NCBI RefSeq assembly: GCF_008086205.1
Contig: NZ_VSKK01000002.1
Location: 310,001-374,000, forward strand
Origin: Bizionia myxarmorum
GTDB lineage: Bacteria; Bacteroidota; Bacteroidia; Flavobacteriales; Flavobacteriaceae
DNA: 64,000 nt
Reading direction: 5' to 3'
The translations under genes were made by a program, and so were the position numbers. Below the pieces are notes generated by a model. That model was not told the origin of the DNA, ran no database searches, and saw only the letters and a list, made by a program, of their open reading frames with translations. Positions 31,303 to 53,548 of the stretch are shown here, in pieces. Position 1 is the stretch's first letter. Every line of letters starts with the position of its first letter.

Positions 31303-31316
31303 ATGATAATTATCAT
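31303..31316 (+). promoter_or_regulatory. FNR-type box in front of hemN
   Basis: ATGATAATTATCAT is a perfect palindrome containing TGAT-N4-ATCA, the FNR/Crp-type operator. Its centre is 29.5 bases before a perfect -7 element (TAATTTTG at 31339), which places the box close to -41, the class II activator position. Confidence 0.85.
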
Positions 31317-31338
31317 ATTTTATATTGCAAATAGATGT

Positions 31339-31346
31339 TAATTTTG
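31339..31346 (+). promoter_or_regulatory. -7 promoter element of hemN
   Basis: TAATTTTG matches TAnnTTTG and lies 19 bases before the hemN ATG (31365). No -33 TTG occurs at the normal spacing, as expected for an activator-dependent promoter. Confidence 0.75.
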
Positions 31347-31364
31347 CTTTATATTTAGTTGAGT

Positions 31365-32729
31365 ATGACAAATTTATTAATAAATAAGTATAATGTTGCG
31401 GGACCTAGGTATACTAGTTATCCAACGGTTCCCTACTGGGATGAACCGTCATTTTCTGTTAAAAAATGGGAGTCTAGCTTAAAGCAATCGTTTCAAGAAA
31501 GCAATATAAGTGAAGGCATTAGTTTATATATTCATTTACCTTTTTGCGAAAGTTTATGCACCTTTTGCGGTTGTAACAAGCGTATAACAACGCGCCATGA
31601 AGTAGAATCGCCTTATATTAATTATGTTTTAAAAGAGTGGCAATTATATGTCGCTATTTTAGGCAGTAAACCGCGAATTAAGGAATTGCATTTAGGTGGT
31701 GGAACACCTACTTTTTTCTCACCTAAAAATTTAGAAAAGCTTATCGACGGTATTTTTTCTAACGCTGAAAAAGCAGAAAATCACGAATTTAGCTTTGAAG
31801 GCCATCCAAATAATACCACAGAAGCCCATTTAAAAACACTTTACAATTTAGGATTTCGTCGCGTTAGTTACGGAGTTCAGGATTATAATGATGTGGTACA
31901 AAAAGCCATTCACCGTATTCAACCTTTTGAAAACGTTAAGCGGGTAACCGAGCTAGCACGTGAAATTGGTTATACATCTATCAGTCATGATATTATTTTT
32001 GGTTTACCCTTCCAAACCGAAGCGCATGTTGCTAATACAATTGCTAGAACCAAAGAATTAATGCCAGACAGGATTGCCTTTTATAGTTATGCGCATGTGC
32101 CGTGGATAAAAGGAAATGGTCAGCGCGGGTTTAAGGATAGCGATTTACCTTCAGCAGAAAGTAAACGCAAACAATATGAACTAGGGAAATCTGAATTAGA
32201 TGCTTGCGGTTTTGTTGAAATAGGTATGGATCATTTTGCATTAAAAAGTGATAATTTATATCAAGCAACGGAAACGAAAGCCTTACACCGAAATTTTATG
32301 GGTTATACATCCAGTAAAACTCAAATGATGATAGGTCTTGGTGTTTCGGCTATTAGCGACAGTTGGTATGGATTTGCTCAAAACGAAAAGAAATTAGAAG
32401 ATTATTATAAGCGTTTAGATACAGACGAAATCCCTGTTATTAAAGGTCATATTTTAAGCACTGAAGATTTAATTATTAGACGTCATATTTTGAATTTAAT
32501 GTGTCATTTTGAAACATCATGGACTGAAACTGATAATTATTTTAAAGAATTGCCAGATGTATTAGTGCAGTTGGAAGAATTAGAGCAAGATGGCTTAATT
32601 CAAATGGAACCATCAACCATAAAAGTAACGGAAGCGGGCAGACCTTATGTCCGAAATGTGTGTATGGCTTTCGATTTGTTATTACAACGCAAGCAACCAG
32701 AATCCCAATTGTTTTCAATGACAATTTAG
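31365..32729 (+). CDS. hemN: Oxygen-independent coproporphyrinogen III oxidase
   Basis: A 454-residue radical-SAM enzyme that makes protoporphyrinogen IX without oxygen. The iron-sulfur motif is CESLCTFCGC (about 60-69, CX3CX2CXC), followed by LHLGGGTPTFF and VSYGVQDYN. The ATG at 31365 is chosen; an in-frame TTG two codons earlier overlaps nothing useful. It has an FNR-type box in front, which fits its role: supplying haem for the cbb3 oxidase and cytochromes when oxygen is low. Confidence 0.95.
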   Translation: MTNLLINKYNVAGPRYTSYPTVPYWDEPSFSVKKWESSLKQSFQESNISEGISLYIHLPFCESLCTFCGCNKRITTRHEVESPYINYVLKEWQLYVAILGSKPRIKELHLGGGTPTFFSPKNLEKLIDGIFSNAEKAENHEFSFEGHPNNTTEAHLKTLYNLGFRRVSYGVQDYNDVVQKAIHRIQPFENVKRVTELAREIGYTSISHDIIFGLPFQTEAHVANTIARTKELMPDRIAFYSYAHVPWIKGNGQRGFKDSDLPSAESKRKQYELGKSELDACGFVEIGMDHFALKSDNLYQATETKALHRNFMGYTSSKTQMMIGLGVSAISDSWYGFAQNEKKLEDYYKRLDTDEIPVIKGHILSTEDLIIRRHILNLMCHFETSWTETDNYFKELPDVLVQLEELEQDGLIQMEPSTIKVTEAGRPYVRNVCMAFDLLLQRKQPESQLFSMTI

Positions 32730-32821
32730 TTTTTGAAAACAGATTACCAATAAATAAAAGAATTAATTAATCATAAAAGCGTTAATAAAATAAGTTTACG
32801 TTTAATTAAAATCATCCAATC

Positions 32822-33655
32822 ATGAAAAAAATTATTGTACCAATAGATTTCTCTGAGTATTCCGAATACGCATTAGAAACAGCTGCTATGTTAGCTAAAA
32901 AGAATGGTTCGGAAATTTTGGCTTTACACATGTTAGAAATGTCTGATGCTGTTTTAACACGAAGCAACACGAATACCCAAATGGAATCTGTGTTTTTTCT
33001 AGAATTAGCTAAAAAGAAATTTAGCGAGTTTTTAGATAAACCGTATTTAGAAGGTGTGAAAATTACGCCAATTGTAAAACAATTCAAGGTGTTCAGCGAA
33101 GTAAATGAGGTTGCTAAAGAACATGATGTGGATTTAATTATCATGGGATCTCAAGGAACTAGTGGTTTCAAAGAATATTTCGTAGGTTCCAATACTGAAA
33201 AGGTAGTTCGTTATTCGGATATTCCGGTTTTAGTTATTAAACACAATCCAATTTTAACAGAATTTGATACAGTTGTTTTTGCTTCTGATTTTTCTGAAGA
33301 CGCTGTTACAGCATACAAGAATGCTAAAAAGATGTGCGCAACTTTAGGTGCAAGCATGCATTTAATTTATGTAAACTTACCAGGTGAAAACTTTAAAAAT
33401 ACAGCAGAAATGGAAGGTAGAGTTGTTACCTTTTTAAAGCAAGCTGATGGCGATTTAGAAAACTTATCTACAGTTACTTATGTTTGTGATTATACGGTAG
33501 AACAAGGTATTTCAAACTTCGCAAATCTAATTGGAGCTGATCTTGTAGCAATGGCTACTCGTGGTAGAAAAGGCTTGGCACATTTTTTTGAAGGAAGTAT
33601 TTCAGAGGATATGGCTAACCATTCAACATTACCAGTTATGACATTCAAAATATAA
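32822..33655 (+). CDS. Tandem universal stress protein (UspA family)
   Basis: A 277-residue protein with two Usp domains (about 1-142 and 148-277). Each ends in the ATP-binding signature: GSQGTSGFKEYFVGSNTEKV in the first and TRGRKGLAHFFEGSISEDM in the second (G-X2-G-X9-GS). Usp proteins support survival under starvation and low oxygen; the location between hemN and the nos cluster fits. I see no FNR box in its own upstream region. It ends at a strong terminator. Confidence 0.93.
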   Translation: MKKIIVPIDFSEYSEYALETAAMLAKKNGSEILALHMLEMSDAVLTRSNTNTQMESVFFLELAKKKFSEFLDKPYLEGVKITPIVKQFKVFSEVNEVAKEHDVDLIIMGSQGTSGFKEYFVGSNTEKVVRYSDIPVLVIKHNPILTEFDTVVFASDFSEDAVTAYKNAKKMCATLGASMHLIYVNLPGENFKNTAEMEGRVVTFLKQADGDLENLSTVTYVCDYTVEQGISNFANLIGADLVAMATRGRKGLAHFFEGSISEDMANHSTLPVMTFKI

Positions 33656-33686
33656 ACGTTCATAGTAAGTATAATTTGTTAGTAAG

Positions 33687-33781: not shown

Positions 33782-33795
33782 ATGATAATTGTCAT
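33782..33795 (+). promoter_or_regulatory. FNR-type box in front of the nos operon
   Basis: ATGATAATTGTCAT, a near-perfect palindrome (TGAT-N4-GTCA). The centre is 29.5 bases before TACTTTTG at 33818, the same geometry as at hemN. Confidence 0.85.
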
Positions 33796-33817: not shown

Positions 33818-33825
33818 TACTTTTG
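33818..33825 (+). promoter_or_regulatory. -7 promoter element of the nos operon
   Basis: TACTTTTG matches TAnnTTTG. The ATG of the cytochrome gene follows 22 bases later. An in-frame ATG at 33823 overlaps this element, which argues against it as the translation start. Confidence 0.75.
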
Positions 33826-33846: not shown

Positions 33847-34347
33847 ATGAGAACATCATTGAAACTAATGACATTATTATTTGCAATGGCTTTAATAAGC
33901 TGTGGCGGTAAAGAGGAGAAAAAGAAAGAAACCTTCTCTTATGACAAAAAAGCACCACAAACAGAAACAACTACCAAGAAAGAGGAAGTACTTCCACCTT
34001 CTAAAAGAGTTGATTTAACAAGTAAAGGTGTTGGACCTATAACTTCTGTAACATTGGATGCTGATATTAATCAGACCATGGCAGATCAAGGTTCCGAAAT
34101 CTACAAAAAGATGTGTACAGCTTGTCATAGAGCCGACAAAAAGTTTATTGGACCAGCGCCAACAGGAATTTTGGAACGTAGAACTCCAGAATGGGTTATG
34201 AACATGATTTTAAATCCTGAGCAAATGGTAAATGAGGATGCTTTAGCTAAAGAACTATTAATGGAGTTTAACGGATCGCCAATGGCTAATCAAAACTTAA
34301 CAGAAGTTGAAGCTAGAGCTGTATTAGAGTACTTTAGAACTTTATAA
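33847..34347 (+). CDS. Lipoprotein c-type cytochrome of the nos cluster
   Basis: A 166-residue lipoprotein (lipobox ALISC, Cys about 19) with a Lys/Glu/Thr-rich linker and one class I cytochrome c domain. The haem site CTACH is at about 93-97 and a distal Met lies in GSPMANQNLT. It is the first gene of the nos operon and the likely electron donor to NosZ. The start at 33847 is chosen because the earlier ATG would lie within the promoter. Confidence 0.88.
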   Translation: MRTSLKLMTLLFAMALISCGGKEEKKKETFSYDKKAPQTETTTKKEEVLPPSKRVDLTSKGVGPITSVTLDADINQTMADQGSEIYKKMCTACHRADKKFIGPAPTGILERRTPEWVMNMILNPEQMVNEDALAKELLMEFNGSPMANQNLTEVEARAVLEYFRTL

Positions 34348-34360
34348 TAACCTAACCACT

Positions 34361-34933
34361 ATGAAACCAATTAAAAAACTGTTTTTTGCAGCTTTAAGCT
34401 TATCACTTTTTTTAGGTTGTAAAAATGAAAACGCAGAAGGTACGCCAACAGTTGTAGATACCAAGACGGTAACTGAAACATCTGGACGTACAGGACAAGC
34501 CTTTATTGAAGATGATGGCAGTGCGCCATCGGTATTGCAAATTGCCATTGGTTCTCCAGACCACACAACATTAGTGGCTGCTGTTCAAGCTGCACAATTG
34601 GAGAATTCTTTATCTAATGCAGGACCATTAATGGTTTTTGCACCAACAAATGAAGCGTTTGCAGCATTACCAGCTGGAACTGTAGAAGATTTATTAAAGC
34701 CAGAAAATAAAGATGCTTTAGCAAATATTCTAAAATATCATGTAACACCAGGAAACTACTCCAAAGACTTTTTGAAAAAGTTTAAAAAGCTAGGACAAGC
34801 AAACAATCAAGATGTTGCTATAGTTGTAGAAGGTGACGACGTTTATGTAGGAGGTGCAAAAATTATTGCAAGTATTCCTGCAGGAAATGGAATTGTTCAC
34901 GTAGTGGATAAAGTGATATTACCAGCAAACTAA
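34361..34933 (+). CDS. Fasciclin domain lipoprotein of the nos cluster
   Basis: A 190-residue lipoprotein (lipobox LFLGC, Cys about 20) with a FAS1 domain (about 60-190): DHTTLVAAVQAAQL, GPLMVFAPTNEAFAALP, ANILKYHVTPG and GNGIVHVVDKVILP. FAS1 domains mediate adhesion or scaffolding. It lies between the cytochrome and nosZ, an arrangement seen in flavobacterial nos clusters; the role in N2O reduction is undefined, possibly docking of NosZ or its donor. Confidence 0.88.
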   Translation: MKPIKKLFFAALSLSLFLGCKNENAEGTPTVVDTKTVTETSGRTGQAFIEDDGSAPSVLQIAIGSPDHTTLVAAVQAAQLENSLSNAGPLMVFAPTNEAFAALPAGTVEDLLKPENKDALANILKYHVTPGNYSKDFLKKFKKLGQANNQDVAIVVEGDDVYVGGAKIIASIPAGNGIVHVVDKVILPAN

Positions 34934-34965
34934 TTTTAAATCAACTTAATGTAAATAATAGGATA

Positions 34966-36936
34966 ATGAGAAAATCAATTAATATTTTTATCTCAATAAT
35001 TATGGTTGCCGGACTGGTTAGCTGTAATGATGGAGGCCAAAAAAAAGGTAAACGAGGTGCCCAAGGTGGTCTTGCTACCAACGCTGCTGAAAGAGTATAC
35101 GTTGCTCCTGGTGAGCTTGACGAATATTACGCATTTATGTCTGGAGGATTTAGTGGGCAGCTTGCTGTTTACGGATTACCATCAGGTCGTTTATTAAAAG
35201 TACTTCCTGTATTTTCTCAAAATCCAGAAAATGGTTGGGGATATTCTGAAGAAACTAAACCAATGCTTAACACATCTTTCGGTTTTGTGCCTTGGGATGA
35301 TTCGCATCACCCAGACATTTCTCAAACAAATGGTGTTTTGGATGGTCGTTGGGTTTTTATCAATGGTAACAACACGCCACGAATTGCACGTATTGACTTA
35401 AAGAACTTTAAAACTGAAGAAATTTTAGAAATTCCTAACAGTGCTGGTAACCACAGTTCATCTTTTATTACTGAAAATACGGAATATGTAGTTGCAGGTA
35501 CACGTTTCTCTGTGCCAATTCCACAGAAAGATATGTCTATAAAAGACTACAAAGGAAACTTTAAAGGTTCTTTGACTTTTATTAAAGTTGATCAAGAAAC
35601 AGGAAGAATGAATATTAAATTCCAGTTAATGATGCCTGGATTTAACTATGATCTTTCTCACCCAGGACGCGATAAGAGTCACGGTTGGTTCTTCTTTACA
35701 ACATATAACACAGAAGAAGCGCACTCACTTTTAGAAGTAAACGCTTCACAAAACGATAAAGATTTTATTGCTGCCGTAAACTGGAAAGTAATTGAAGAGT
35801 ATGTGAATAATGGTGGAGGAACAAAAGTTCCTGCTAAATATGCACATAACATTTTAGATGAAAACACGCACACTGCTACATCAACTATGTTAGATGAAGT
35901 GTTAACAGTTAACCCAATGGATGTTCCTGGAGCGGTTTATTTCTTACCAACTCCAAAATCTCCACACGGTTGTGATGTTGATCCAACAGGTGAATATATT
36001 GTAGGTAACGGAAAACTTTCTGCTGATTTAACAGTGCACAGTTTTACAAAAATGCTTGATGCTATTGAAAAAAAGAAATTTGATGGTGAAGCTTATGGAA
36101 TTCCAATTTTAAACTTTGAAGATATTTTAGCTGGTGTTGTTAAGCAACCAGGTTTAGGACCATTACATACAGAGTTTGATGATAAAGGAAACGCGTATAC
36201 TACGTTCTTTATCTCTTCTGAAGTTGTAAAATGGAAAGTTGGTACTTGGGAAGTATTAGATCGTCAACCAGTATTCTACTCGGTTGGTCACGGTATGATT
36301 CCTGGAGGAAACTCTCGTAAGCCATTTGGAAAATACTTTATAGCTTTAAACAAAATTACTAAAGACAGATATTTACCAACAGGTCCAGAGCTAACGCAGT
36401 CTGCGCAGTTGTTTGATATTTCAGGTGAAAAGATGGAGCTGTTGTTAGATTTCCCAACTATTGGAGAACCGCATTATGCTGCAGCAATACCGGCAAGTAT
36501 GATTGCTCCAAATTCTAGAAAGATCTATAAATTGGCTGAAAACAAACACCCTTATGCAGCCCTTACAGATGGTGATGTAAAAGTTGTACGTGATGGAAAG
36601 GAAGTTCATATTTACATGAATATGATTCGTAGCCACTTTAATCCAGACAATATTGAAGGTGTTAAAGTAGGAGACAAAGTATTCTTCCACATTACAAACC
36701 ACGAGCAAGATTTTGATGTACCTCACGGTTTTGCAGTAATTGGTGCTAATAATGCTGAATTATTAGTAGTTCCTGGTGCAACAGAAACTTTAGTTTGGGA
36801 ACCAAAACAAGTAGGAGTATGGCCATTCTATTGTACTGACTTCTGTTCTGCACTTCACCAAGAAATGCAAGGTTATGTACGTGTAAGTCCAGCTGATTCA
36901 GATATTGAATTATCTTGGAGTTTAGGTGATGAATAA
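34966..36936 (+). CDS. nosZ: Nitrous oxide reductase, clade II, lipoprotein-type
   Basis: A 656-residue N2O reductase (N2O to N2). The N-terminus is a Sec-type signal with a lipobox (GLVSC, Cys20), not a Tat signal, as in clade II. CuZ ligands are visible as DDSHHPD (His114-115), GNHSSSF, SPHGCDV, GPLHTEF, SVGHGM and GEPHYA. The C-terminal CuA domain has DVPHGFAV and YCTDFCSALHQEMQGY, providing the His, two Cys, His and Met ligands. The set of copper ligands looks complete, so the enzyme should be active. It is preceded by its presumed donor cytochrome and followed by accessory genes. Confidence 0.96.
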   Translation: MRKSINIFISIIMVAGLVSCNDGGQKKGKRGAQGGLATNAAERVYVAPGELDEYYAFMSGGFSGQLAVYGLPSGRLLKVLPVFSQNPENGWGYSEETKPMLNTSFGFVPWDDSHHPDISQTNGVLDGRWVFINGNNTPRIARIDLKNFKTEEILEIPNSAGNHSSSFITENTEYVVAGTRFSVPIPQKDMSIKDYKGNFKGSLTFIKVDQETGRMNIKFQLMMPGFNYDLSHPGRDKSHGWFFFTTYNTEEAHSLLEVNASQNDKDFIAAVNWKVIEEYVNNGGGTKVPAKYAHNILDENTHTATSTMLDEVLTVNPMDVPGAVYFLPTPKSPHGCDVDPTGEYIVGNGKLSADLTVHSFTKMLDAIEKKKFDGEAYGIPILNFEDILAGVVKQPGLGPLHTEFDDKGNAYTTFFISSEVVKWKVGTWEVLDRQPVFYSVGHGMIPGGNSRKPFGKYFIALNKITKDRYLPTGPELTQSAQLFDISGEKMELLLDFPTIGEPHYAAAIPASMIAPNSRKIYKLAENKHPYAALTDGDVKVVRDGKEVHIYMNMIRSHFNPDNIEGVKVGDKVFFHITNHEQDFDVPHGFAVIGANNAELLVVPGATETLVWEPKQVGVWPFYCTDFCSALHQEMQGYVRVSPADSDIELSWSLGDE

Positions 36937-37003
36937 ATAAAATTTAATGCCAATAATTTAAGAGTTTGGAAATTTTGTTTTAGTGTTTATTTCCATACTA
37001 TAA

Positions 37004-37038
37004 GGCGAGAGTTGATTATTTTCACTCTCGCCTTTCTT
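37004..37038 (+). terminator. Terminator-like hairpin after nosZ
   Basis: GGCGAGAGT (37004-37012) pairs perfectly with ACTCTCGCC (37024-37032) and is followed by TTTCTTTT. It lies between nosZ and the next nos gene, so it may cause partial termination or protect the 3' end of the nosZ message. Confidence 0.85.
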
Positions 37039-37083
37039 TTTAAAATGCTATTAACTGAATGGTTAATTTAATTTAAATTTATT

Positions 37084-37707
37084 ATGAAAAAAGCAGGAAT
37101 AATAATGATTATAGGATCACTTTTATTATTAGGGCTCTTTAAATTTCCGCTTTGGAATATCATGCTTGGCGCACCTCAATATCCAGACCCTTTAGGAATG
37201 GACATCTATATTCAGGGAATAGAAGGTGTTCAAGAATTTGATATCCAAAATATTGATGGTCTTAACCACTATATTGGAATGAGAACCATCCCGAAAGTAG
37301 AAGACATGTGGGAGTTTAGGGTATTTCCAGCCGTTGTTGGAATCATGGTAGCACTTGGTGTGATTATCGGTTTACTAGGTTTCTTTGGCAAATTAAGTTA
37401 CAAATGGTTTCTTGGTTGGTTCGTTTTGATGTCTGTACTTGGTATTATGGGAATGTACGATTTTAACTTATGGTTAATAGATTACGGTACAAATTTAGAT
37501 CCTAAAGCTATTATGAAACTTGAAAATCTAGATGGAACACCTATGTCTTACAAACCACCATTATTAGGTTACCAGAAAATGCTTAATTTTGATGTAGATT
37601 CTTGGCCAGGAGCTGGAGCTTATATGATTTTCGCTGGAATGATGCTTACTGTTGTAGCTTTCTTTGTAGGGAAAAGTGCTATTAAAAAGCATATTAATGC
37701 TGCTTAA
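37084..37707 (+). CDS. NosB-like membrane protein of the nos cluster
   Basis: A 207-residue protein with four membrane helices (about 5-25, 87-107, 115-135 and 180-200) and a periplasmic loop after the first helix containing DIQNIDGLNHYIGM. Proteins of this type sit directly after nosZ in clade II clusters, where an integral membrane protein called NosB is found. I assign NosB-likeness by position and topology only. The invariant-looking NHYIGM and a later PGAGAYMIFAG segment may bind a cofactor or copper. Confidence 0.65.
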   Translation: MKKAGIIMIIGSLLLLGLFKFPLWNIMLGAPQYPDPLGMDIYIQGIEGVQEFDIQNIDGLNHYIGMRTIPKVEDMWEFRVFPAVVGIMVALGVIIGLLGFFGKLSYKWFLGWFVLMSVLGIMGMYDFNLWLIDYGTNLDPKAIMKLENLDGTPMSYKPPLLGYQKMLNFDVDSWPGAGAYMIFAGMMLTVVAFFVGKSAIKKHINAA

Positions 37708-37808
37708 ATTTATTTTGAATTTAACTTTAAGATCCAAAGGAAAAGTGACGATGACGACTTTCCTTTACTAAATTGAAAATTGATACTCAAATATTAAACT
37801 ATAATCAG

Positions 37809-38243
37809 ATGAAACAGTTTCTTTTTCTGGGCGTTATAAGCCTTTTATTCACCTCTTGTAATGTGAGTCCGCAGCCCATAAATTATGGGTCGGATGCTTG
37901 CAATTTCTGCGATATGACTATTGTAGACAAGCAACATGCTTCGCAATTGGTTACATCAAAAGGGAAGGCTTATAAATATGATGCTATTGAATGTATGGTG
38001 CATTCCTTACAAGATAAGTTTCCAGATACAGAAATGGCGTATTATCTAGTAGCGGATTTCCACCAACCAGGTGAATTGATTGATGCCACCAAAGCTTCTT
38101 TTTTGGTGAGTAAGAAATTACAGAGCCCCATGGGAGAAAATCTATCCGCCTTCTTAAATCAAGAATTAGGAAAGAAAGCGCAAAAAGAATTTACTGGCGA
38201 TATATTCTCTTGGAAAGAAATTCAGGATTATCTAAAATTATAA
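37809..38243 (+). CDS. nosL: NosL copper chaperone lipoprotein
   Basis: A 144-residue lipoprotein (ATG at 37809; lipobox LFTSC, Cys about 17). The NosL signature CNFCDM (about 31-36) provides the copper ligands, and the segment KYDAIECMVHSL is also typical. NosL delivers Cu(I) for assembly of the CuZ centre of NosZ. An upstream non-ATG start would add 12 residues and spoil the signal peptide. A terminator-like hairpin follows. Confidence 0.92.
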   Translation: MKQFLFLGVISLLFTSCNVSPQPINYGSDACNFCDMTIVDKQHASQLVTSKGKAYKYDAIECMVHSLQDKFPDTEMAYYLVADFHQPGELIDATKASFLVSKKLQSPMGENLSAFLNQELGKKAQKEFTGDIFSWKEIQDYLKL

Positions 38244-38256
38244 TATTAAAAAATGG

Positions 38257-38310
38257 CTTCAGCATTTTCTAACGGACTAAAATCCTTTTAAGATTTGCTG
38301 AAGTTTTTTT
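38257..38310 (+). terminator. Terminator-like hairpin after nosL
   Basis: CTTCAGCA (38257-38264) pairs with TGCTGAAG (38296-38303), followed by T7. The 31-base loop contains a smaller AAATC/GATTT hairpin. Expression of nosDFY may therefore be lower than that of nosZ or have its own promoter. Confidence 0.75.
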
Positions 38311-38451
38311 ATTGCATTCCTAAATAAATGGGTTAGTTGGATGTGATTTTTATGAATTTCAAGTCTCGAAATTTTATTAAAATCTGTATCTTCAGCTTTT
38401 TAAATCATCTCTTATGAGAATGACTTTATATTGATAAATTTTGACATCATT

Positions 38452-39705
38452 TTGAAAAATAAACACTACATATTCTTCTTCTTAACACTCTTGTTTTCCA
38501 TTACAAACTTGTGGTCTAGTACTATTACTGTTTGTGCCACTTGTTCAGTTAAAACAATACAACAAGCTCTTGATCTTGCGCAAGATGGTGATACCATTAT
38601 GGTGAAAAAAGGAATTTATAAAGAGGCGAATTTAAAAATTAATAAAAGTATTACGCTTATAGGTGAAGGTCTTCCAACTATAGATGGCGAAGCAAAAGGA
38701 GAAATTATAACTATAGGCGCAGACAACGTAACGCTTGATGGTTTTAAAATTATAAATGTAGGCGTAAGCTATACAACAGACTATGCAGCTGTACGGGTTG
38801 TAAATAGTGAAGGTTATACCATTCAGAACTTGGTGTTGGAGAAACTGTTTTTTGGCATTTATCTTCAAAAATCCAATAATGGTAAAGTCTTGAATAATAA
38901 AGTTCAAGGTGAAGCTGTAACGGAATTTAATTCTGGTAATGCTGTTCATTTATGGTATTGTAAAAATGTGGAAGTCCGCGGAAATGATGCGCGAAATGTT
39001 CGTGATGGTATTTATCTTGAATTCTCTGATAATATAACCATAATCGATAATTTTAGTAAAGACAATGTGCGTTACGGCCTTCATTTTATGTTTAGTAATA
39101 ATAACACGGTTGTCAATAATGTATTTGAAAGTAATGGTGCTGGAATAGCTCTAATGTTTTCAAAATTTATGCATGTTGAAAATAACGTTATTAAGAAAAA
39201 CTGGGGAAGCGCAGCTTACGGTTTACTCTTAAAAGAAGTGACGGACGTGACACTAAAAAACAACATATTTATGGAAAACACGGTTGGAATTACGGTGGAA
39301 GGAAGTAACCGTTTAATATACAGCCACAACAATTTTACAAGTAATGGCTACGCTATTAGGGTGAAAGGTGCGTGCTACGATAACCAAATTATAGATAACA
39401 ATTTTCTTTATAATTCTTTTGATATTTCCTACAACGGTAGAATTAACGATAATAAATTTGATAACAATTTCTGGAGTAATTACACCGGTTATGATTTGGA
39501 CAAAGACGGCATCGGCGATGTCCCATACCGACCCGTGAAATTGTTTTCTTATATAGTAAATAGAACCCCAGAGACTATAATTTTATTGCGAAGTCTATTT
39601 ATTGATCTGATAGATTTTTCAGAAAAAGTGTCTCCAGTATTTACACCAGACGATTTAATGGATGAAAATCCAAGAATGAAACGCATTGAGCATGATAGAA
39701 ATTAA
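38452..39705 (+). CDS. nosD: NosD, periplasmic copper-site maturation protein
   Basis: A 417-residue NosD: signal peptide (about 1-22, FFFLTLLFSITNLWSS) and a right-handed beta-helix (CASH/NosD repeats such as NGKVLNNKVQGEA, SDNITIIDNF, SNNNTVVNNVF). NosD works with NosF and NosY in CuZ/sulfur delivery. No ATG is available in frame before the signal peptide; TTG at 38452 (or 38431) must serve as start. The nearby ATGs at 38414 and 38420 are in another frame and hit a stop. Confidence 0.9.
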   Translation: MKNKHYIFFFLTLLFSITNLWSSTITVCATCSVKTIQQALDLAQDGDTIMVKKGIYKEANLKINKSITLIGEGLPTIDGEAKGEIITIGADNVTLDGFKIINVGVSYTTDYAAVRVVNSEGYTIQNLVLEKLFFGIYLQKSNNGKVLNNKVQGEAVTEFNSGNAVHLWYCKNVEVRGNDARNVRDGIYLEFSDNITIIDNFSKDNVRYGLHFMFSNNNTVVNNVFESNGAGIALMFSKFMHVENNVIKKNWGSAAYGLLLKEVTDVTLKNNIFMENTVGITVEGSNRLIYSHNNFTSNGYAIRVKGACYDNQIIDNNFLYNSFDISYNGRINDNKFDNNFWSNYTGYDLDKDGIGDVPYRPVKLFSYIVNRTPETIILLRSLFIDLIDFSEKVSPVFTPDDLMDENPRMKRIEHDRN

Positions 39706-42717: not shown

Positions 42718-42728
42718 TCTTATCAAGC

Positions 42729-42767: not shown

Positions 42768-42787
42768 TTCTTAAAAATTCTTCAGCT

Positions 42788-45546: not shown

Positions 45547-45547
45547 G

Positions 45548-45994: not shown

Positions 45995-46041
45995 ATTAGT
46001 TACCGTAAAACGGTTTTTTATTTAAGCGTTAAATTCAACTT

Positions 46042-47466
46042 TTAATTATAACTCCTAGGTCCTAAAAAGTTAACGGTTTCGGTTTCTATAAGCTCGTCAT
46101 TGCTGTAAACCTCAATCATTAAACGATTTTTATCACCACTCAATTCATTCTGATCAATTTCAATGAATAACGTTCCTTGAGATAGTCCTTGAGCTGGCAC
46201 ATTAAAGGTTTCAGCATTGGATACTATTTTAATAGTTCCATCAAATTTTCGCAATTTAAAATGGATGTTTTCAATTTCTTTAGTGGTTTTATTAACCAAT
46301 TTAAAGGTGAAAACATTACTAATAATAGAACCTTCTTTATGTTCGTATAATTGACCAGGCAATCTTAAAATATTGGCTTCAACATCATTTCGAAGCAATA
46401 ACATCCCCGATAAAACGCCAAATAGAATAAATAAAACTGCTATATATCCTTTTAAACGTGGTGTTAACTTGAATTTTTCTTTCTTCTCAATTTCATCTTC
46501 ACTGGCATAACGAATTAAGCCCTTTGGAAGATTAATGCTTTCCATAATATGGTCGCATTCATCAATACAAGCAGTACAGTTAACACATTCTAATTGCGTT
46601 CCGTTACGAATATCAATTCCGGTAGGACAAACATGAACGCATTGTAAACAATCAATACAGTCGCCATGACCTAAAGCGTCACGATCCTCATTTTTTCGGA
46701 ATGTTTTTCTACCATTTTCACCTTCACCACGCTTATGATCATAAGCAACAATAATGGATTTATCATCTAAAAGAACACCTTGTAAACGTCCATAAGGGCA
46801 TGCTATAATACAAACTTGTTCTCTAAACCAAGCAAATACAAAATAGAATACGCCGGTGAATATTAATAAGGGTGCTAACGTACCAATATGTTTGGTTGGA
46901 CCATCAGTAATGTGTGAAATAAGCTTATCACTACCAATTAAATAGGCTAAAAATACATTAGCTATTAAAAATGAAATAACTAAAAATATAAACCATTTAA
47001 GCAGTCGTTTTCTAATCTTTTCAGCATTCCAAGGCTGCTTATCTAATTTACGTTGTTTATTTCTATCGCCGTCAATCCAATATTCAATACGACGGAAAAC
47101 CATTTCCATAAAGATGGTTTGCGGACAAATCCATCCGCAGAAAATACGGCCAAATCCCACTGTAAAAAGCGCAATAAAAATAACGCCAATCAGCATGGAG
47201 ATAACAAACAAATAAAAATCTTGTGGCCAAAATGGGAATCCAAATATGTTAAAACGGCGCTCTAAAATGTTAAACATTAAGAACTGATTCCCGTTTATTT
47301 TAATAAAAGGGGCAACAAATAGGAAAGCTAATAAAACATAACTCACTATTTTACGCCACTCATAGTATCTACCGCTCGGCTTTTTAGGATATACCCATGC
47401 GCGTTTACCTTGATCATCTAATGTACCAATGGTATCTCTAAATGATTCATTTTCTGGAGTTTCCAC
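46042..47466 (-). CDS. ccoG: CcoG (FixG), cbb3 oxidase accessory iron-sulfur protein
   Basis: A 474-residue membrane protein with about five helices and a ferredoxin-like domain holding two 4Fe-4S motifs (CIDCLQCVHVCPTGI and CVNCTACIDECDH), plus the CPQTIFMEM and ACPYGRLQG segments. CcoG is a cupric reductase needed for copper insertion into cbb3 oxidase. The C-terminal ~110 residues form an immunoglobulin-like periplasmic domain. The frame opens with GTG at 47466; no ATG precedes. Confidence 0.95.
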   Translation of the reverse strand: METPENESFRDTIGTLDDQGKRAWVYPKKPSGRYYEWRKIVSYVLLAFLFVAPFIKINGNQFLMFNILERRFNIFGFPFWPQDFYLFVISMLIGVIFIALFTVGFGRIFCGWICPQTIFMEMVFRRIEYWIDGDRNKQRKLDKQPWNAEKIRKRLLKWFIFLVISFLIANVFLAYLIGSDKLISHITDGPTKHIGTLAPLLIFTGVFYFVFAWFREQVCIIACPYGRLQGVLLDDKSIIVAYDHKRGEGENGRKTFRKNEDRDALGHGDCIDCLQCVHVCPTGIDIRNGTQLECVNCTACIDECDHIMESINLPKGLIRYASEDEIEKKEKFKLTPRLKGYIAVLFILFGVLSGMLLLRNDVEANILRLPGQLYEHKEGSIISNVFTFKLVNKTTKEIENIHFKLRKFDGTIKIVSNAETFNVPAQGLSQGTLFIEIDQNELSGDKNRLMIEVYSNDELIETETVNFLGPRSYN

Positions 47467-47491
47467 TATGCTTTTATTTTAAGAATTGAAA

Positions 47492-48457
47492 TTAATTTTC
47501 GACAGAAGCTACAGGGTCAGTATTAACCTCTGCATCTTCTACTGGAACATCTTCTTTTGGTGTGTCTTGAACTGGTGCATTTTCATCTACCCAAATATCG
47601 CCTTCCGCTTCTTTCGGGTTCGCGGCTGTTTTACCTTGAAATGTTAATACATAACTTCCAACTTGAGCCATTTCTAATGGCGACAAACTTTGCTTCCAGG
47701 AAATCATTCCTTTACCAGCTCTACCACCTTCAACTAAAGTTTTAAATACGTTTTTTATTCCACCACCTAAAATCCAATAATTATCGGTTAGGTTGGGGCC
47801 AATACCACCACCACCATCAGCCATATGACAGGCTACACAGTTAGCTTCAAAAATGGCCATACCAGCTTTAAGATCTGAAGCATCTGTTAGTAATTCAACA
47901 GTATTAATATCTACTAAACCTTTGGTGTTTTTCTTATATTCTTCAATATCTATGGCAGCTTGTGCATATTCTGTTTCTAATTCATCATATTGATTATCGG
48001 CATCAAAAACGTGATATTTCACTAAATAAACAGCAGCAAAAACAATAGAAGCATAAAAACTGTAAATCCACCAGGGCGGTAAGTTATTATCTAGCTCACG
48101 AATACCATCATAGTTATGGTCTAAAATAATATCGTGCTCCTCTTCCATTGATTTTGAATCCAAGGATTTGGTGTATATTTTTTGGAACCATGCTTGAAAT
48201 TTAGGATTTCTAACTTTCTGCACATCATAGCGTGCTTTTCCTTCAGCATCTAAACTCTGATATAGAATGTTATCCATAGAACTAACAATGGCTTCAATAC
48301 CTATAAGTAATATAAGTACAAATATTAAAAATAGCATAACTAAAGGCTCCTCAATGAAAGCTGGTTGATGGCCAGAATCTATAAAGAACTCTGCTAATAA
48401 AGCTATAAGGAAAAATAAAACGGGTATCCGAACCCAAGCTGGGATTAACTGTCTCAT
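47492..48457 (-). CDS. ccoP: CcoP, mono-haem subunit of cbb3 oxidase
   Basis: A 321-residue cytochrome subunit: two N-terminal membrane helices (about 9-25, 38-58), a third at about 133-150, then one cytochrome c domain with CVACH (about 213-217) and the distal Met in GKGMISWKQ. Proteobacterial CcoP has two haem c sites; only one is seen here, as is usual in Bacteroidota. The Pro/Asp/Glu-rich C-terminus (about 285-321) is low-complexity. It overlaps the ccoQ end by 4 bases. Confidence 0.92.
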   Translation of the reverse strand: MRQLIPAWVRIPVLFFLIALLAEFFIDSGHQPAFIEEPLVMLFLIFVLILLIGIEAIVSSMDNILYQSLDAEGKARYDVQKVRNPKFQAWFQKIYTKSLDSKSMEEEHDIILDHNYDGIRELDNNLPPWWIYSFYASIVFAAVYLVKYHVFDADNQYDELETEYAQAAIDIEEYKKNTKGLVDINTVELLTDASDLKAGMAIFEANCVACHMADGGGGIGPNLTDNYWILGGGIKNVFKTLVEGGRAGKGMISWKQSLSPLEMAQVGSYVLTFQGKTAANPKEAEGDIWVDENAPVQDTPKEDVPVEDAEVNTDPVASVEN

Positions 48458-48642
48458 AATTCTTCGTGGTTTTGGTCGTTATCTAATGGTATATTACTTA
48501 CAGTGTCTATATAATCTTTTTTCGCGGTTACAACCCACCAAAATAAGACTACAAAAAAGATGAAAAATATGAGCAATGAGATAATAGGATATATCTCAAT
48601 TCCTGCAATACTATCCATATGATTTTTTACAAACTTTAACAT
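48454..48642 (-). CDS. ccoQ: CcoQ-like small subunit of cbb3 oxidase
   Basis: A 62-residue protein with one membrane helix (about 18-38, LLIFFIFFVVLFWWVV) and a short charged C-terminus. Its position between ccoNO and ccoP and its size identify it as CcoQ, which stabilises the oxidase. There is little sequence conservation in this family, so the call rests on context. Confidence 0.85.
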   Translation of the reverse strand: MLKFVKNHMDSIAGIEIYPIISLLIFFIFFVVLFWWVVTAKKDYIDTVSNIPLDNDQNHEEL

Positions 48643-48660
48643 AGTTTATTTATTTTATGG

Positions 48661-50835
48661 TTATTCTTCTAAATCTTTTACATTTATATCAGTTCCTAAT
48701 CGTTGTAAGTAGGCAATGATAGCTACAATTTCACGATTACGCATTTCTATAAAATCTTCACCACCTGCAGCTTTATCAGCTTCATAACTAGAGGCAAAAT
48801 CTGGATCTGTATACAAATTCTTCTCAATTTTAGTACCCTGTGCTAGCATATTTGCTTGCGCATTTTCAATGTCTTCATCAGAATAAGGAACCCCTAATGT
48901 TACCATGGCTCTTAATTTGGTTTCAGTATTGGATTTATCCAATTCATCAGTAATCATCCATTTATAAGATGGCATAATAGAACCTGAAGAGGTACTTTGT
49001 GGATCGTACATGTGGTTGAAATGCCAGTTATCCGAATACTTACCACCAATTCGGTGTAAATCTGGACCTGTACGTTTAGAACCCCATAAGAATGGATGAT
49101 CATATACAAACTCTCCAGCTTTAGAGTAATCGCCATAACGTTCTACTTCACTTCTAAAAGGTCTTACCATTTGCGAGTGACAACCCACACAACCTTCACG
49201 TATGTATATATCACGACCTTCTAATTCTAAAGGCGTATAAGGTTTCACACTACTAATGGTTGGAATATTCGATTTAACCATAATGGTTGGTACAATTTGT
49301 ACAATACCACCTATTAAGATAGCAATTGTTGCGTAGATAGTCAACCTAATTGGCTTTCTTTCTAACCATGAGTGCCATCCTTCACCACCAACACGGGTTT
49401 TAGACACATTTTGTAATGCTGCTGCTTCGGCTAACTCATCCGTAACAGGACTACCATTTCTTACCGTTGCAATGACGTTATAAACTAATACTAACATACC
49501 TGTTAGATAAAGCGTTCCACCAATAGCACGCATCCAATACATAGGCATGATCTCTGTTACAGTTTCTAAAAAGTTACCGTAAGTAAGTGTGCCATCTGGG
49601 TTGAATTGTTTCCACATACTTGCTTGTGTGAATCCAGCAACGTAAAGTGGTAAAGCATACATAATAATACCTAATGTTCCAATCCAGAAATGTAAATTGG
49701 CTAAACCTATAGAGTATAATTTCGTTTTAAATAAGCGCGGTATTAACCAATATATCATACCGAAAGCCAAGAATCCGTTCCAAGCTAAAGCACCCACGTG
49801 AACGTGTGCAATAATCCAGTCTGTAAAGTGACCAATGGCGTTAACGTTTTTCAAAGAAAGCATAGGGCCTTCAAAAGTTGCCATCCCGTAACCGGTAATT
49901 GCTACAACCATAAATTTTAAAACTGGATCGGTTCGTACTTTATCCCAAGCACCACGGAGTGTTAATAATCCATTTATCATACCACCCCAAGATGGCATTA
50001 ATAGCATAACAGAGAATGCAACACCTAAATTTTGTGCCCATTCAGGAAGCGCTGTATAAAGTAAGTGGTGCGGTCCAGCCCAGATATAAATAAAAATTAA
50101 AGACCAGAAGTGAATAATAGATAGACGATAGGAGTAAACCGGTCTGTTCGCTGCTTTAGGAACAAAATAATACATTAATCCTAAAAATGGCGTTGTTAAA
50201 AAGAAAGCCACCGCGTTATGTCCATACCACCATTGTACTAATGCATCTTGAACACCTGCATATACCGAATAACTTTTAAAAGCACTAACAGGCACTTCTA
50301 AACTGTTGAAAATGTGAAGTACGGCAACCGTTACAAATGTGGCAATATAAAACCAAATTGCTACATATAAGTGGCGTTGTCTTCTTCTAATCATTGTACC
50401 AATTAAGTTGGCGCCAAAAACGACCCAAACTATGGCTATGGCTATATCAAAAGGCCATTCTAATTCGGCATATTCTTTAGAGGTAGAAAAACCTAAAGGC
50501 AAGGTAATGGCTGCTCCAACAATAATAAGCTGCCAACCCCAAAAGTTAATTTTACTTAACATATCGCTATACATTCTAGCTTTTAACAAACGTTGGGTAG
50601 AATAGTAAACACCAGCGAAGATGGCGTTTCCAACGAATGCGAAAATCACAGCGTTGGTATGCAATGGTCTTAATCTACCAAAACTTAACCAGGAAATACC
50701 ATCTGTTAAGTTTGGAAATAGAAATAGAAAGGCTAAAAGTAAGCCTACGATCATTCCTACAACTCCCCAAAATATGGTGGCATAGAGGAAATTTTTAACG
50801 ATCTTATTATCGTAATAGAATTGTTGTACTTCCAT
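48661..50835 (-). CDS. ccoNO: CcoN-CcoO fusion, catalytic subunit of cbb3 oxidase
   Basis: A 724-residue protein. Residues ~1-490 are CcoN (12 helices; HTNAVIFAFVGN, WYGHNAVAFFLTTPFLG and HVHVGALAWNGF hold haem and CuB histidines). After a linker and another helix, residues ~520-724 are CcoO with EGCVGCHSQMVRPF (haem c) and distal Met in GSIMPSYKWM. The enzyme reduces oxygen with high affinity and pumps protons. Start at ATG 50835 (MEVQQFYYD); a longer frame upstream overlaps ccoS and is rejected. The fusion is typical of Bacteroidota. Confidence 0.96.
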   Translation of the reverse strand: MEVQQFYYDNKIVKNFLYATIFWGVVGMIVGLLLAFLFLFPNLTDGISWLSFGRLRPLHTNAVIFAFVGNAIFAGVYYSTQRLLKARMYSDMLSKINFWGWQLIIVGAAITLPLGFSTSKEYAELEWPFDIAIAIVWVVFGANLIGTMIRRRQRHLYVAIWFYIATFVTVAVLHIFNSLEVPVSAFKSYSVYAGVQDALVQWWYGHNAVAFFLTTPFLGLMYYFVPKAANRPVYSYRLSIIHFWSLIFIYIWAGPHHLLYTALPEWAQNLGVAFSVMLLMPSWGGMINGLLTLRGAWDKVRTDPVLKFMVVAITGYGMATFEGPMLSLKNVNAIGHFTDWIIAHVHVGALAWNGFLAFGMIYWLIPRLFKTKLYSIGLANLHFWIGTLGIIMYALPLYVAGFTQASMWKQFNPDGTLTYGNFLETVTEIMPMYWMRAIGGTLYLTGMLVLVYNVIATVRNGSPVTDELAEAAALQNVSKTRVGGEGWHSWLERKPIRLTIYATIAILIGGIVQIVPTIMVKSNIPTISSVKPYTPLELEGRDIYIREGCVGCHSQMVRPFRSEVERYGDYSKAGEFVYDHPFLWGSKRTGPDLHRIGGKYSDNWHFNHMYDPQSTSSGSIMPSYKWMITDELDKSNTETKLRAMVTLGVPYSDEDIENAQANMLAQGTKIEKNLYTDPDFASSYEADKAAGGEDFIEMRNREIVAIIAYLQRLGTDINVKDLEE

Positions 50836-50839
50836 AATT

Positions 50840-51028
50840 TTAATTACTCTTTTTGGTTTTATTAGTTTGTTCTTGGTTGTCTTTAACAAGTTCGTCTTCA
50901 AACAGCATGCGGACAGATGGGGTGTAGTCATCGTCAAATTGGCCGTTTCTTACCGCTATTACAAAAGCAATAAAGAAGCCCACAGCTACTACGATACTGA
51001 TAGTCAATAATATATAAATAGCACTCAT
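50840..51028 (-). CDS. ccoS: CcoS, cbb3 oxidase assembly protein
   Basis: A 62-residue protein: one membrane helix (about 2-22, SAIYILLTISIVVAVGFF) and the family tail AVRNGQFDDDYTPSVRML. CcoS is needed to insert haem and copper in cbb3 oxidase. Start at ATG 51028 is preferred over the ATG at 51049, because the latter lies within the -7 promoter element (51054-51047) and the family begins MSxIY. It is the first gene of the cco operon. Confidence 0.92.
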   Translation of the reverse strand: MSAIYILLTISIVVAVGFFIAFVIAVRNGQFDDDYTPSVRMLFEDELVKDNQEQTNKTKKSN

Positions 51029-51046: not shown

Positions 51047-51054
51047 CAAAATTA
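51047..51054 (-). promoter_or_regulatory. -7 promoter element of the cco operon
   Basis: On the minus strand TAATTTTG matches TAnnTTTG, 19 bases before the ccoS ATG (51028). Its distance from the FNR-type box centre is the same 29.5 bases as at hemN and nos. Confidence 0.78.
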
Positions 51055-51076: not shown

Positions 51077-51090
51077 ATGATAAAAATCAT
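51077..51090 (-). promoter_or_regulatory. FNR-type box in front of the cco operon
   Basis: ATGATAAAAATCAT holds TGAT-N4-ATCA. It lies between ccoS and the end of ccoI and points to the ccoS promoter by its spacing. Confidence 0.85.
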
Positions 51091-51106
51091 ATTCGGTTAT
51101 TTGGAA

Positions 51107-53479
51107 TCATTCTAATTTTCTTCCAATAAAATTGGTTGCAACTGTTGTAAATATGACAATGCTAATGGAGCTTAACGGCATTAAAATAGCAGCGATTACA
51201 GGCTCTAATTGCCCAGTTACGGCGAAGTACAAACCTATAATATTATAAAAGAAGGACAAAAGAAAACTCCATTTAATTATCTTAATGGCTTGTTTGGATG
51301 CTTTAATATACTGATACAAATAATTGAATTTATTAGCATCCAAAATGGCATCACAGGCGGGCGAAAATACATTTACATTTTCTGAAATAGCAATTCCAAC
51401 ATCACTTTGAGCCAAAGCACCAGCATCATTAAGTCCGTCGCCAATCATTAATACTTTTGCGCCTTCAGATTGATGATATTTGATGTATTCTAATTTATCA
51501 TCGGGTTTCTGATTGAAAATCAATTTGGTTTTTGAAGGTAATAATTTTTTAAGATTCTCCATTTCTCCAGCATTATCGCCCGAAAGAATCACTAAATCAT
51601 AATCTGTTTTAAGCTTATTGAATAATTTTGACAAGCCTTTTCTATAGCTATTGTAAAAGGTGTATTTCCCTTTGTACTCGTCATTACTGGTAATATGAAC
51701 CGTTGTATTTAGCAAAGTGGTTTCTTGATTAAAACCAACAAAACTGGCAGAACCAATTTTCATGGTATCATTTTGATGCTTACTTTCAATGCCTTTTCCT
51801 AAATGCTCTTCAAAGTGATTTAAAGTAATAATATTATGTTCATCCAAAATATCATATAAGGTGCGACTTAAAGGATGGTTGGAACCTCTTAAGGTATTTT
51901 TAAGTTGAATTTCTTCAGAAGAAGATAATATAGCGCCATCATAAGTTGCCGTACTTTGTTTGTTAGAAGTTATAGTTCCCGTTTTATCAAAAATTACGGT
52001 ATCAATGGCAGCTAACTGTTCAATTACGGATGCGTTTTTAAGGTAGAATTTCAATTTCCCAAAAATTCGCAATAAGTTGCCTAGGGTAAAAGGCGCAGAA
52101 AGTGCAATGGCACAAGGACAAGCAATAATTAATACGGCCGTAAATACATTCATGGCTTTTGAAGCATCCACCAATAGCCAGTAGGCTGTAGAAATGAATG
52201 CAATACTTAAAACCGCAATGGTAAATCGTTTACTAATAGTATTTGTTAAGGTTGTGAAACTATCTTCTTTGTTTTTATTAAAGACATCATTACTCCAAAG
52301 TTGGGTCAGGTAACTTTGCTCCACAGACTTTAAAGCTTCCATTTCAATCACACCAGAAGTTTGTTTTCCGCCGGCAAATAATTTATCGCCTGAATTTTTA
52401 GAAATCGCTTCCGATTCGCCTGTAACAAAACTATAATCTATTTTGGCGCGTCCGTTTATTAAAATACCATCAACAGGAATTAACTCTTCGTTCCTAATAA
52501 GTAAACGATCGCCTTTTTCAATATCATAAACCTGAATAGGCGCTTCAATGCCATTTTCAATTTTAGTAATAGCAATGGGGAAATAGGATTTATAATCCCT
52601 TTCAAAAGAAAGAAAAGAATAGGTTCGTTGTTGAAAGAATCGTCCTAATAATAAGAAGAACACCAAACCTGTTAGACTATCAAAAAAACCAGCGCCAATG
52701 TTTAGTACAATTTCAAAGGTACTTCTAACAAATAGAACAACAAGACCAAGTGCAATGGGGACATCAATATTTAAAATACCAGCCCGTAAACCTTTATAAG
52801 CTGAAGTAAAGTAATCTCGACCTGCATAAAAAACCACAGGAAGTGAAAAGGCAAACATAAGCCATCTAAAAACATGCTTATATTGTTCTAGCCAAAACTC
52901 ACCGCCTTTAAAATATTCTGGAAAGGATAAAAACATCACGTTTCCGAAAGCAAAACCGGCAACGCCTAATTTATAAATTAAGGTGCGATTGATGTTTTCT
53001 TTACCTGTTTTAAAATCTTCCAAAGAAATGTAAGGCTCATAACCAATGGCACTTAAAAGTAAAACAGCTTCTTTAAGGGAGAATTTTTCGGTATTGTAAG
53101 TAATTCGAACATTTTTCTTGCCAAAATTAACTTGTGACGAGGTGATATTTGAATTCAGCTTATTTAGATTTTCTAAAATCCAAATACAGGAACTACAATG
53201 AATATGCGGAATGTATAAGGTGGCAATTTGAATATGACCATCATTAAACTCCGTTAATTTCTCAATGATTTTTTCTTGGGCTAGAAAATCATATTTTCCT
53301 TGAATCTCCTTGGGCGCCGAACCTGGAGAAGACTGTAAATCATAATAACAGGTTAAATCGTTTTCAGAAAAAATTTCATAAACCGTTTTACACCCATTAC
53401 AACAAAATAATTTTTCATCGTAAGTAATTTGTTCTGAATTGCATACGTCACCACAGTGGAAACAATTGTGTTGTTCCAT
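51107..53479 (-). CDS. ccoI: CcoI (FixI), copper-transporting P1B-type ATPase
   Basis: A 790-residue P-type ATPase. The N-terminus has a Cys-rich module (CFHCGDVC and FCCNGCKTVYEIF) and a heavy-metal domain with HCSSCIWILENL (about 95-106). Eight membrane helices include CPC (IACPCAIALSAP); DKTGT, GDGLNDAGAL and SGDN mark the catalytic domains. It exports copper to the cbb3 assembly line. An FNR-type box lies in front. It is separate from, but directly upstream of, the ccoS operon on the same strand. Confidence 0.95.
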   Translation of the reverse strand: MEQHNCFHCGDVCNSEQITYDEKLFCCNGCKTVYEIFSENDLTCYYDLQSSPGSAPKEIQGKYDFLAQEKIIEKLTEFNDGHIQIATLYIPHIHCSSCIWILENLNKLNSNITSSQVNFGKKNVRITYNTEKFSLKEAVLLLSAIGYEPYISLEDFKTGKENINRTLIYKLGVAGFAFGNVMFLSFPEYFKGGEFWLEQYKHVFRWLMFAFSLPVVFYAGRDYFTSAYKGLRAGILNIDVPIALGLVVLFVRSTFEIVLNIGAGFFDSLTGLVFFLLLGRFFQQRTYSFLSFERDYKSYFPIAITKIENGIEAPIQVYDIEKGDRLLIRNEELIPVDGILINGRAKIDYSFVTGESEAISKNSGDKLFAGGKQTSGVIEMEALKSVEQSYLTQLWSNDVFNKNKEDSFTTLTNTISKRFTIAVLSIAFISTAYWLLVDASKAMNVFTAVLIIACPCAIALSAPFTLGNLLRIFGKLKFYLKNASVIEQLAAIDTVIFDKTGTITSNKQSTATYDGAILSSSEEIQLKNTLRGSNHPLSRTLYDILDEHNIITLNHFEEHLGKGIESKHQNDTMKIGSASFVGFNQETTLLNTTVHITSNDEYKGKYTFYNSYRKGLSKLFNKLKTDYDLVILSGDNAGEMENLKKLLPSKTKLIFNQKPDDKLEYIKYHQSEGAKVLMIGDGLNDAGALAQSDVGIAISENVNVFSPACDAILDANKFNYLYQYIKASKQAIKIIKWSFLLSFFYNIIGLYFAVTGQLEPVIAAILMPLSSISIVIFTTVATNFIGRKLE

Positions 53480-53504
53480 AAAATTTGCTCAATTATACCT
53501 GTTA

Positions 53505-53548
53505 CAAAGATTATAAGATAAGTATTAATTTAATATGATTTTTGTCAT
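53505..53548 (-). promoter_or_regulatory. FNR-type box and promoter of ccoI
   Basis: ATGATTTTTGTCAT (53535-53548) is the box. On the minus strand a TTTG (53508-53505) sits exactly where the other four promoters have theirs; the preceding bases are TAATC, one base longer than TAnn. The site points to ccoI (26 bases to its ATG). The opposite direction, toward the regulator gene at 53588, has no TAnnTTTG at the matching place. Confidence 0.7.

Follow-up and report, generated by a model that had tools for sequence, protein, structure and literature searches.

What joins the genes for haem synthesis, nitrous oxide (N2O) reduction, copper uptake and a cbb3 oxidase that lie together in one stretch of the genome of the marine Bacteroidota bacterium Bizionia myxarmorum? 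The stretch, hereafter the window, comprises 64,000 nucleotides (C8:310001-374000) of a genome of 3.36 Mb. An earlier note on this DNA had described five palindromes of the form ATGAT-N4-(A/G)TCAT, each at a shared distance from a promoter element, and had proposed a regulon of the FNR type. All five are present (31303, 33782, 41253, 51077 and 53535), except that the one at 41253 begins with CTGAT (CTGATTTTTATCAT) and not with ATGAT. As described, an exact TAnnTTTG begins 29.5 bases from the box centre in four cases (31339, 33818, 41289 and 51054 on the minus strand); in front of ccoI, TTTG alone is in register and the same position reads AATCTTTG (53512-53505, minus strand). We consider it quite probable that the FNR-type protein encoded at 53588 activates, from class II positions, hemN, the nos, copper-uptake and cco genes, ccoI and probably nirK, and that its own gene, fnr, is repressed from a box shared with ccoI.

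The evidence that carries this reading is the spacing. By gap 23 we mean 23 bases between the 12-base core TGAY-N4-RTCA and TAnnTTTG. This combined motif occurs four times in the window, against a mean of 0.013 and never more than one in 300 dinucleotide shuffles, and the claim that the shared spacing goes beyond chance is thus well founded. The box alone (at most one mismatch, both strands) gives 28 matches in the window against a mean of 14.2, a number reached by 1 of 100 shuffles; since this is just about twofold over shuffles, most of the signal comes from the spacing. When the genome was scanned for TGAY-N4-RTCA followed by TAnnTTTG at any gap from 8 to 38, 31 pairs were found, of which 20 have gap 23 and 2 have gap 22; the 9 others include the fnr promoter at gap 9. 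Among 120 genomes of the family, gap 23 accounts for 921 of the 2122 sites over all gaps; the 30 other gaps share 1201 sites, a mean of 40 each, which makes gap 23 a 23-fold peak. The reversed pattern, used as a control in the same 120 genomes, gave 18 sites at gap 23 and 24 per gap overall. A count of gap 23 alone in 90 Bacteroidota genomes gave 66 sites for 9 genomes of the family (including ours), 6 for a single other genome of the order, 34 for 12 further genomes of the class and 29 for the 68 left. Gap 23 is a family-wide rule for promoters of the CRP/FNR type.

The boxes, elements and genes concerned are given below by their positions in the window; boxes and -7 elements were read from the sequence.

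31303 to 31316, plus strand: FNR-type box of hemN, ATGATAATTATCAT, with a predicted centre at -41.5.
31339 to 31346, plus strand: -7 element of hemN, TAATTTTG; transcription start predicted at about 31351, ATG at 31365.
31365 to 32729, plus strand: hemN, oxygen-independent coproporphyrinogen III oxidase (NCBIfam TIGR00538, 434.9 bits, cut-off 324.95).
33782 to 33795, plus strand: FNR-type box of the nos cluster, ATGATAATTGTCAT.
33818 to 33825, plus strand: -7 element of the nos cluster, TACTTTTG.
33847 to 41174, plus strand: nos cluster, with a cytochrome c, a fasciclin-domain protein, a Sec-type NosZ, a protein without family match, NosL, NosD and an ABC ATPase and permease (NosF/NosY-like).
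41253 to 41266, plus strand: box of the copper-uptake genes, CTGATTTTTATCAT.
41289 to 41296, plus strand: -7 element of the copper-uptake genes, TAAATTTG; transcription start predicted at 41301.
41301 to 44785, plus strand: copper-uptake genes, for a small CNGKC protein (no family match), a YtkA-like protein and a TonB-dependent receptor.
44845 to 51028, minus strand: cco genes, namely ccoS (50840-51028), a ccoN-O fusion, ccoP, ccoG, ccoH (FixH) and a gene for a DsbD-like membrane protein.
51047 to 51054, minus strand: -7 element of ccoS, TAATTTTG, starting at 51054.
51077 to 51090, minus strand: box of ccoS-ccoNO, ATGATTTTTATCAT, seen in the sequence and kept in the named loci described below.
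51107 to 53479, minus strand: ccoI-like P-type ATPase with a metal-binding N-terminus, which scores under the cut-off of the NCBIfam copper model.
53505 to 53512, minus strand: -7 element of ccoI, AATCTTTG, without the T at -12, at gap 23 and with the box centre at -41.5.
53535 to 53548, assigned to neither strand: box common to ccoI (minus) and fnr (plus), reading ATGATTTTTGTCAT on the plus strand.
53557 to 53564, plus strand: -7 element of fnr, TATTTTTG, at gap 9 and with the box centre at -27.5, over the -33 region.
53588 to 54265, plus strand: FNR-type regulator P0001 (cNMP-binding and Crp-type helix-turn-helix (HTH) domains), the proposed activator of the regulon.

This layout is kept in related genomes. 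Our genome was compared with three of the five other genomes of the genus, and the boxes of hemN, nos and CNGKC stand at gap 23 in all four (own and 3/3 others), with the spacer diverging. The ccoS box is at gap 23 in three of the four and at gap 24 in G004. For ccoI, two genomes show gap 22 with TACCTTTG, and the two others gap 23 with an imperfect element; fnr has gap 9 in 4/4. A wider comparison used loci of up to 20 kb around relatives of the regulator, the best 80 of 425, from named Flavobacteriaceae (Bizionia, Winogradskyella, Gelidibacter, Algibacter and others), here called the named loci. ccoNO is found in 73 of the 80, with the box in 72 and an exact TAnnTTTG at gap 23 in 71 and at gap 24 in one. 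ccoI is found in 79, with the box in 77 and mostly with an A at -11 and TTTG, without the T at -12, and the nos cytochrome occurs in 2 named loci, both with the exact motif. It might be argued that A+T-rich intergenic DNA yields such palindromes and TAnnTTTG by chance, in keeping with the merely twofold excess of the box alone in the window. However, the four combined motifs against 0.013 in shuffles and the 23-fold family peak, absent from the reversed control, rule this out, and the layout kept in four same-genus genomes and 71/73 ccoNO loci adds to it; the genome scan, the family scan, the named loci and the same-genus comparison already refute chance, whose probability we regard as negligible.

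The primary sigma factor of Bacteroidota reads unusual -33/-7 elements and, to our knowledge, activator-dependent promoters of this phylum are poorly described. In Flavobacterium psychrophilum, according to the main text of PMC9723704, TAnnTTTG stands at -12 to -5. Because of this promoter position, gap 23 puts the box centre at -41.5, so that the class II placement proposed earlier is borne out: a dyad site is held at a fixed spacing from the core promoter (20/31 pairs in the genome, 921/2122 in the family), relative to transcription starts that are predicted ones. The -33 element, said to be lacking, is indeed weak or missing. TTG occupies the -33 position in just 2 of 34 gap-23 promoters (20 of our own and 14 from 29 loci of other genomes, one strand being read), and a T-rich stretch follows the box instead. 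The boxes might nevertheless be repressor sites over an upstream promoter element that escaped detection, with repression lifted at low oxygen, and the box at -27.5 before fnr does resemble a repressor site. But a repressor has no need of one exact spacing, and a centre at -41.5 without the -33 TTG in 32/34 promoters fits dependence on an activator; we therefore hold general repression for quite improbable.

Under the activation reading, the boxes are predicted binding sites of the 53588 protein, a CRP/FNR-family member and divergent homologue of FNR. At low oxygen this protein would sit as a dimer at -41.5, make up for the absent -33 contact and activate, at the TAnnTTTG -7 elements, an RNA polymerase that carries the Bacteroidota sigma factor. 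Its targets would be hemN for haem, nos for N2O reduction, the CNGKC, YtkA-like and TonB genes for copper uptake, ccoS-NO-P-G-H for the high-affinity oxidase and ccoI for the copper loading of this oxidase. The choice of respiratory and copper genes as a predicted regulon is supported, and the predicted targets hemN, nos, cco, ccoI and nirK all belong to anaerobic or microaerobic respiration. The assignment of ccoS was also right, as its reading frame (50840-51028, minus strand) matches Pfam FixS at 6.6e-19. For the TonB-dependent receptor, the best NCBIfam model is a copper receptor, at 116.7 bits and under the cut-off of 472. Outside the window, nirK at C8:272615 (L062:4722-6185) has an exact gap-23 motif in front of it; it encodes a copper nitrite reductase (TIGR02376, 348.5 bits, cut-off 296.3) with a C-terminal cytochrome c domain and is probably a further member of the regulon. 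Since the predicted transcription start at 41301 is the A of the ATG, the mRNA of the CNGKC gene may be leaderless. The ATG of this gene stands four bases past TTTG in 4/4 of the same-genus genomes compared. Between hemN and nos lies a Usp gene (32822-33655), and its homologues have a gap-23 motif of their own in 5 of the 14 named loci that hold one.

The box common to ccoI and fnr would act in two ways, by class II activation of ccoI and by repression of fnr. A box lies at most 70 bases from the regulator gene in 75 of the 80 named loci (none in 5), which supports the earlier proposal of the 53588 protein as the best candidate regulator. On the fnr side of these 75, TAnnTTT(G/A) stands at gap 9 in 69, at gap 10 in 4, at gap 11 in 1 and is missing in 1, and the predicted fnr leaders measure 14-19 bases in 63/74. 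On the ccoI side, NAnnTTTG stands at gap 23 in 67, at gap 22 in 4 and at gap 24 in 2, with none of these in 2. Repression of fnr is proposed because gap 9 centres the box at -27.5; a dimer bound there would cover the -33 region and should keep the polymerase out. Judged by position, a single dyad thus probably activates ccoI and represses fnr, and the arrangement suggests autorepression of fnr. A two-way layout like that of ccoI and fnr is also seen on C16 (L058:1533-2901), where the gene of a Crp-type regulator, P0005, has a box just ahead of its start; on the other strand of this box, GAATTTTG stands at gap 23 before the genes of a 98-residue and a 134-residue protein, the latter resembling a truncated haemoglobin by eye, with no Pfam match.

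As for the regulator itself, the FNR regulon of Escherichia coli has dyad boxes at -41.5 and targets in anaerobic respiration, and FNR-type control of hemN, nos and cco, like class II activation at -41.5, is classic in Proteobacteria. The predicted regulon resembles that of E. coli in its CRP/FNR fold, the position of its dyad box and the nature of its targets. P0001 has the FNR domains (Pfam PF00027, cNMP-binding, and PF13545, Crp-type HTH) and shares E191 and R195 in the HTH domain with E. coli FNR. Of the four cluster cysteines in E. coli FNR (which we take to be C20, C23, C29 and C122), the first, second and fourth align with C4, C7 and C106 of P0001, C106 being assigned by reading C-x-x-P in the alignment. 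As one of the four is missing, sensing of the FNR type can only be supposed. Among 81 sequences, C53 is present in 81 and C29 in 78, and both could be substitute ligands; most likely, the protein would carry an iron-sulphur (Fe-S) cluster whose ligands are altered. The best match in the PDB is 2gau (transcriptional regulator, Crp/Fnr family, 6.8e-27), presumably from Porphyromonas gingivalis. Unlike E. coli FNR, to which it is 22% identical, P0001 has an Asn in place of the third cluster cysteine and would work with the Bacteroidota -7 element TAnnTTTG. The E. coli consensus is given as TTGAT-N4-ATCAA in PMC1274295, against ATGAT-N4-RTCAT here.

The observations that weigh against this reading concern the protein, the other sites of the genome and the genomes of relatives. 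With regard to the protein, the best NCBIfam model is Fnr NF008365 at 73 bits, below its cut-off of 228; the position of the third cluster cysteine is Asn13 (N in 78 and S in 3 of 81); and the genome encodes four proteins with a Crp-type HTH, i.e. three besides the 53588 protein. In 8 named loci, genes matching hemN (by match alone) had no box found in front of them. The genome-wide scan envisaged in the earlier note confirmed that gap 23 dominates (20/31), but the motif is not exclusive to respiratory genes, as 10 of its 20 occurrences at gap 23 fall within an island of stress genes. Even among the 10 gap-23 sites outside this island, 5 precede respiratory or copper genes, and the remaining 5 precede a thioredoxin-like gene, a Usp gene, ribB, a gene of unknown function (with a second one across the box) and, in one case, no open reading frame within 300 bases.

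The island lies at C5:1513829-1550488 (L054-L056, including L054:11873-16157), and since it holds half of the gap-23 sites, the geometry is not specific to FNR. Its ten sites stand before genes for a 1-Cys peroxiredoxin, an MscS channel, a YtxH protein, a LOG/lysine-decarboxylase-like protein, a WG-repeat protein, two BON proteins, a ferritin-like protein, a protein that looks Usp-like by eye and one of 128 residues that matched no family. The idea that this second cluster, on C5, is a denitrification island was rejected, the identified genes being stress genes or unknown. Four of the island boxes read TGACCTAGGTCA and the other six have related cores. At least two box sets with different cores thus share one spacing in this genome. 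P0003 is a response regulator with the rare domain order receiver-cNMP-HTH(Crp). It probably controls its own operon, because the site at 1518719 stands ahead of the genes for MscS, a PAS/GAF histidine kinase of 1078 residues and P0003. Close orthologues of P0003 (at least 56%) occur in 10/120 genomes, and TGACCTANRTCA boxes with gap 23 were found in 7/10 genomes with such an orthologue vs 2/110 others (Fisher p = 7e-8, relatedness ignored).

The 120 family genomes were grouped into 69 with a near-full-length homologue of the 53588 protein (at least 43% identity), 31 with weaker or partial homologues only and 20 with none at E <= 1e-20. Gap-23 sites numbered 2.63, 2.52 and 0.37 per Mb in these groups, with medians of 8, 7 and 0 per genome, these genome comparisons (Fisher, Mann-Whitney) ignoring relatedness. 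The geometry therefore tracks the presence of this regulator family and not of the FNR orthologue as such. The density in genomes with weaker homologues is as high as in those with an orthologue; many of the 20 genomes without homologue are small or incomplete and, among the 8 of them of at least 2.2 Mb, G068 (82% complete) has 9 sites and none of the seven others more than 2. ccoNO was then sought in the 39 genomes without FNR orthologue (all 31 with weaker homologues and these 8) and found in 28 at an identity of at least 75%. In 26/28, a cco box stands before ccoS with TAnnTTT(G/A) at gap exactly 23, ending in TTTG in 12 and in TTTA in 14, so that box and geometry do not identify the regulator. 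No cco box was found in the two other ccoNO genomes, G060 and G109; in G109 the promoter may be cut off, because the match begins 677 bases from the contig end. These FNR-less genomes and the stress island speak against a combined motif restricted to FNR targets, a reading that we rejected.

Thus, the sites might be of class II, but the acting protein might be, or include, another CRP-family member such as the receiver-cNMP-HTH regulator, in which case the respiratory genes would answer a kinase and not an Fe-S cluster. Besides the cco boxes kept in FNR-less genomes, a receiver-CRP response regulator (E <= 1e-40) is found in 26 of the 28 FNR-less ccoNO genomes (not in G040, which has a partial 43% match to P0001, nor in G068) and in 27/69 FNR genomes, and the recognition helices are near-identical (TATESAIR in P0001, TATETAIR in P0003). 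However, the only receiver-CRP protein of our genome at this threshold sits in the stress island, where the cores differ, and the TGACCTANRTCA boxes follow its close orthologues. Moreover, the same-genus genome G001, which has no receiver-CRP protein at E <= 1e-40, keeps the six promoter faces of the window, and fnr itself bears a box. For our genome we therefore think it unlikely that a regulator other than the 53588 protein is at work.

For FNR-less genomes, we infer that the receiver-CRP protein takes the place of FNR at the cco promoter. This leads to a broader proposal, which may well hold but which we put forward tentatively and would not yet call probable. In Flavobacteriaceae, the rigid layout (centre at -41.5, no -33 contact, TAnnTTTG) might serve sensors of the CRP superfamily as a shared socket. 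It would be read in some genera by a cysteine-bearing homologue of FNR whose ligand set is unusual, and in others a kinase-controlled receiver-CRP response regulator would read the same cco promoter. If this is true, the cis layout outlasts the exchange of its regulator, and within one family respiration can shift from direct oxygen sensing to two-component control with the promoter unmoved.

Comparable systems are described in part. The DNR/NnrR and HcpR regulons resemble the present one in that nir, nor and nos are controlled by members of the FNR family, which act on FNR-like palindromes; those of HcpR2, predicted for most Bacteroides and P. gingivalis, consist of hcp alone, with the consensus GTAAC-N4-GTTAC. 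They differ from it in that neither a Flavobacteriaceae regulon nor a fixed spacing to a -7 element is described in the part of that source at hand (PMC1274295). In F. psychrophilum, oxygen limitation strongly induces the cbb3 oxidase and haem-synthesis enzymes, a response like the one predicted here in its genes and in its TAnnTTTG promoters; the terms 'fnr' and 'crp' are absent from the main text, and the part of it at hand describes no activator or box (PMC9723704). HcpR, PgRsp and CrpPg of P. gingivalis are Bacteroidota members of the CRP/FNR superfamily (PMC12040651), to which P0001 belongs as well. Homologues in Flavobacteriales have been assigned to MalR-like carbon sensing (PMC8510549). 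No account of this regulon or spacing in Flavobacteriaceae was found in a literature search confined to main texts and mostly to open-access papers.

The exact spacing provides, at the level of the family, a rule to find regulons of the CRP/FNR type from sequence alone. With it, transcription starts can be predicted to the base, and class II contacts with the Bacteroidota sigma factor become directly testable. The predicted regulon would place Sec-type N2O reduction, copper supply and the cbb3 oxidase under one regulator, a link that matters for how N2O consumption is controlled.

A further arrangement with this spacing was seen at C5:778510-778583 (L188:918-3407), where one box, TGACAATTGTCA, has a -7-like element at gap 23 on either side (TACTTTTG and GAATTTTG) and faces two genes without family match, for proteins of 192 and 599 residues.

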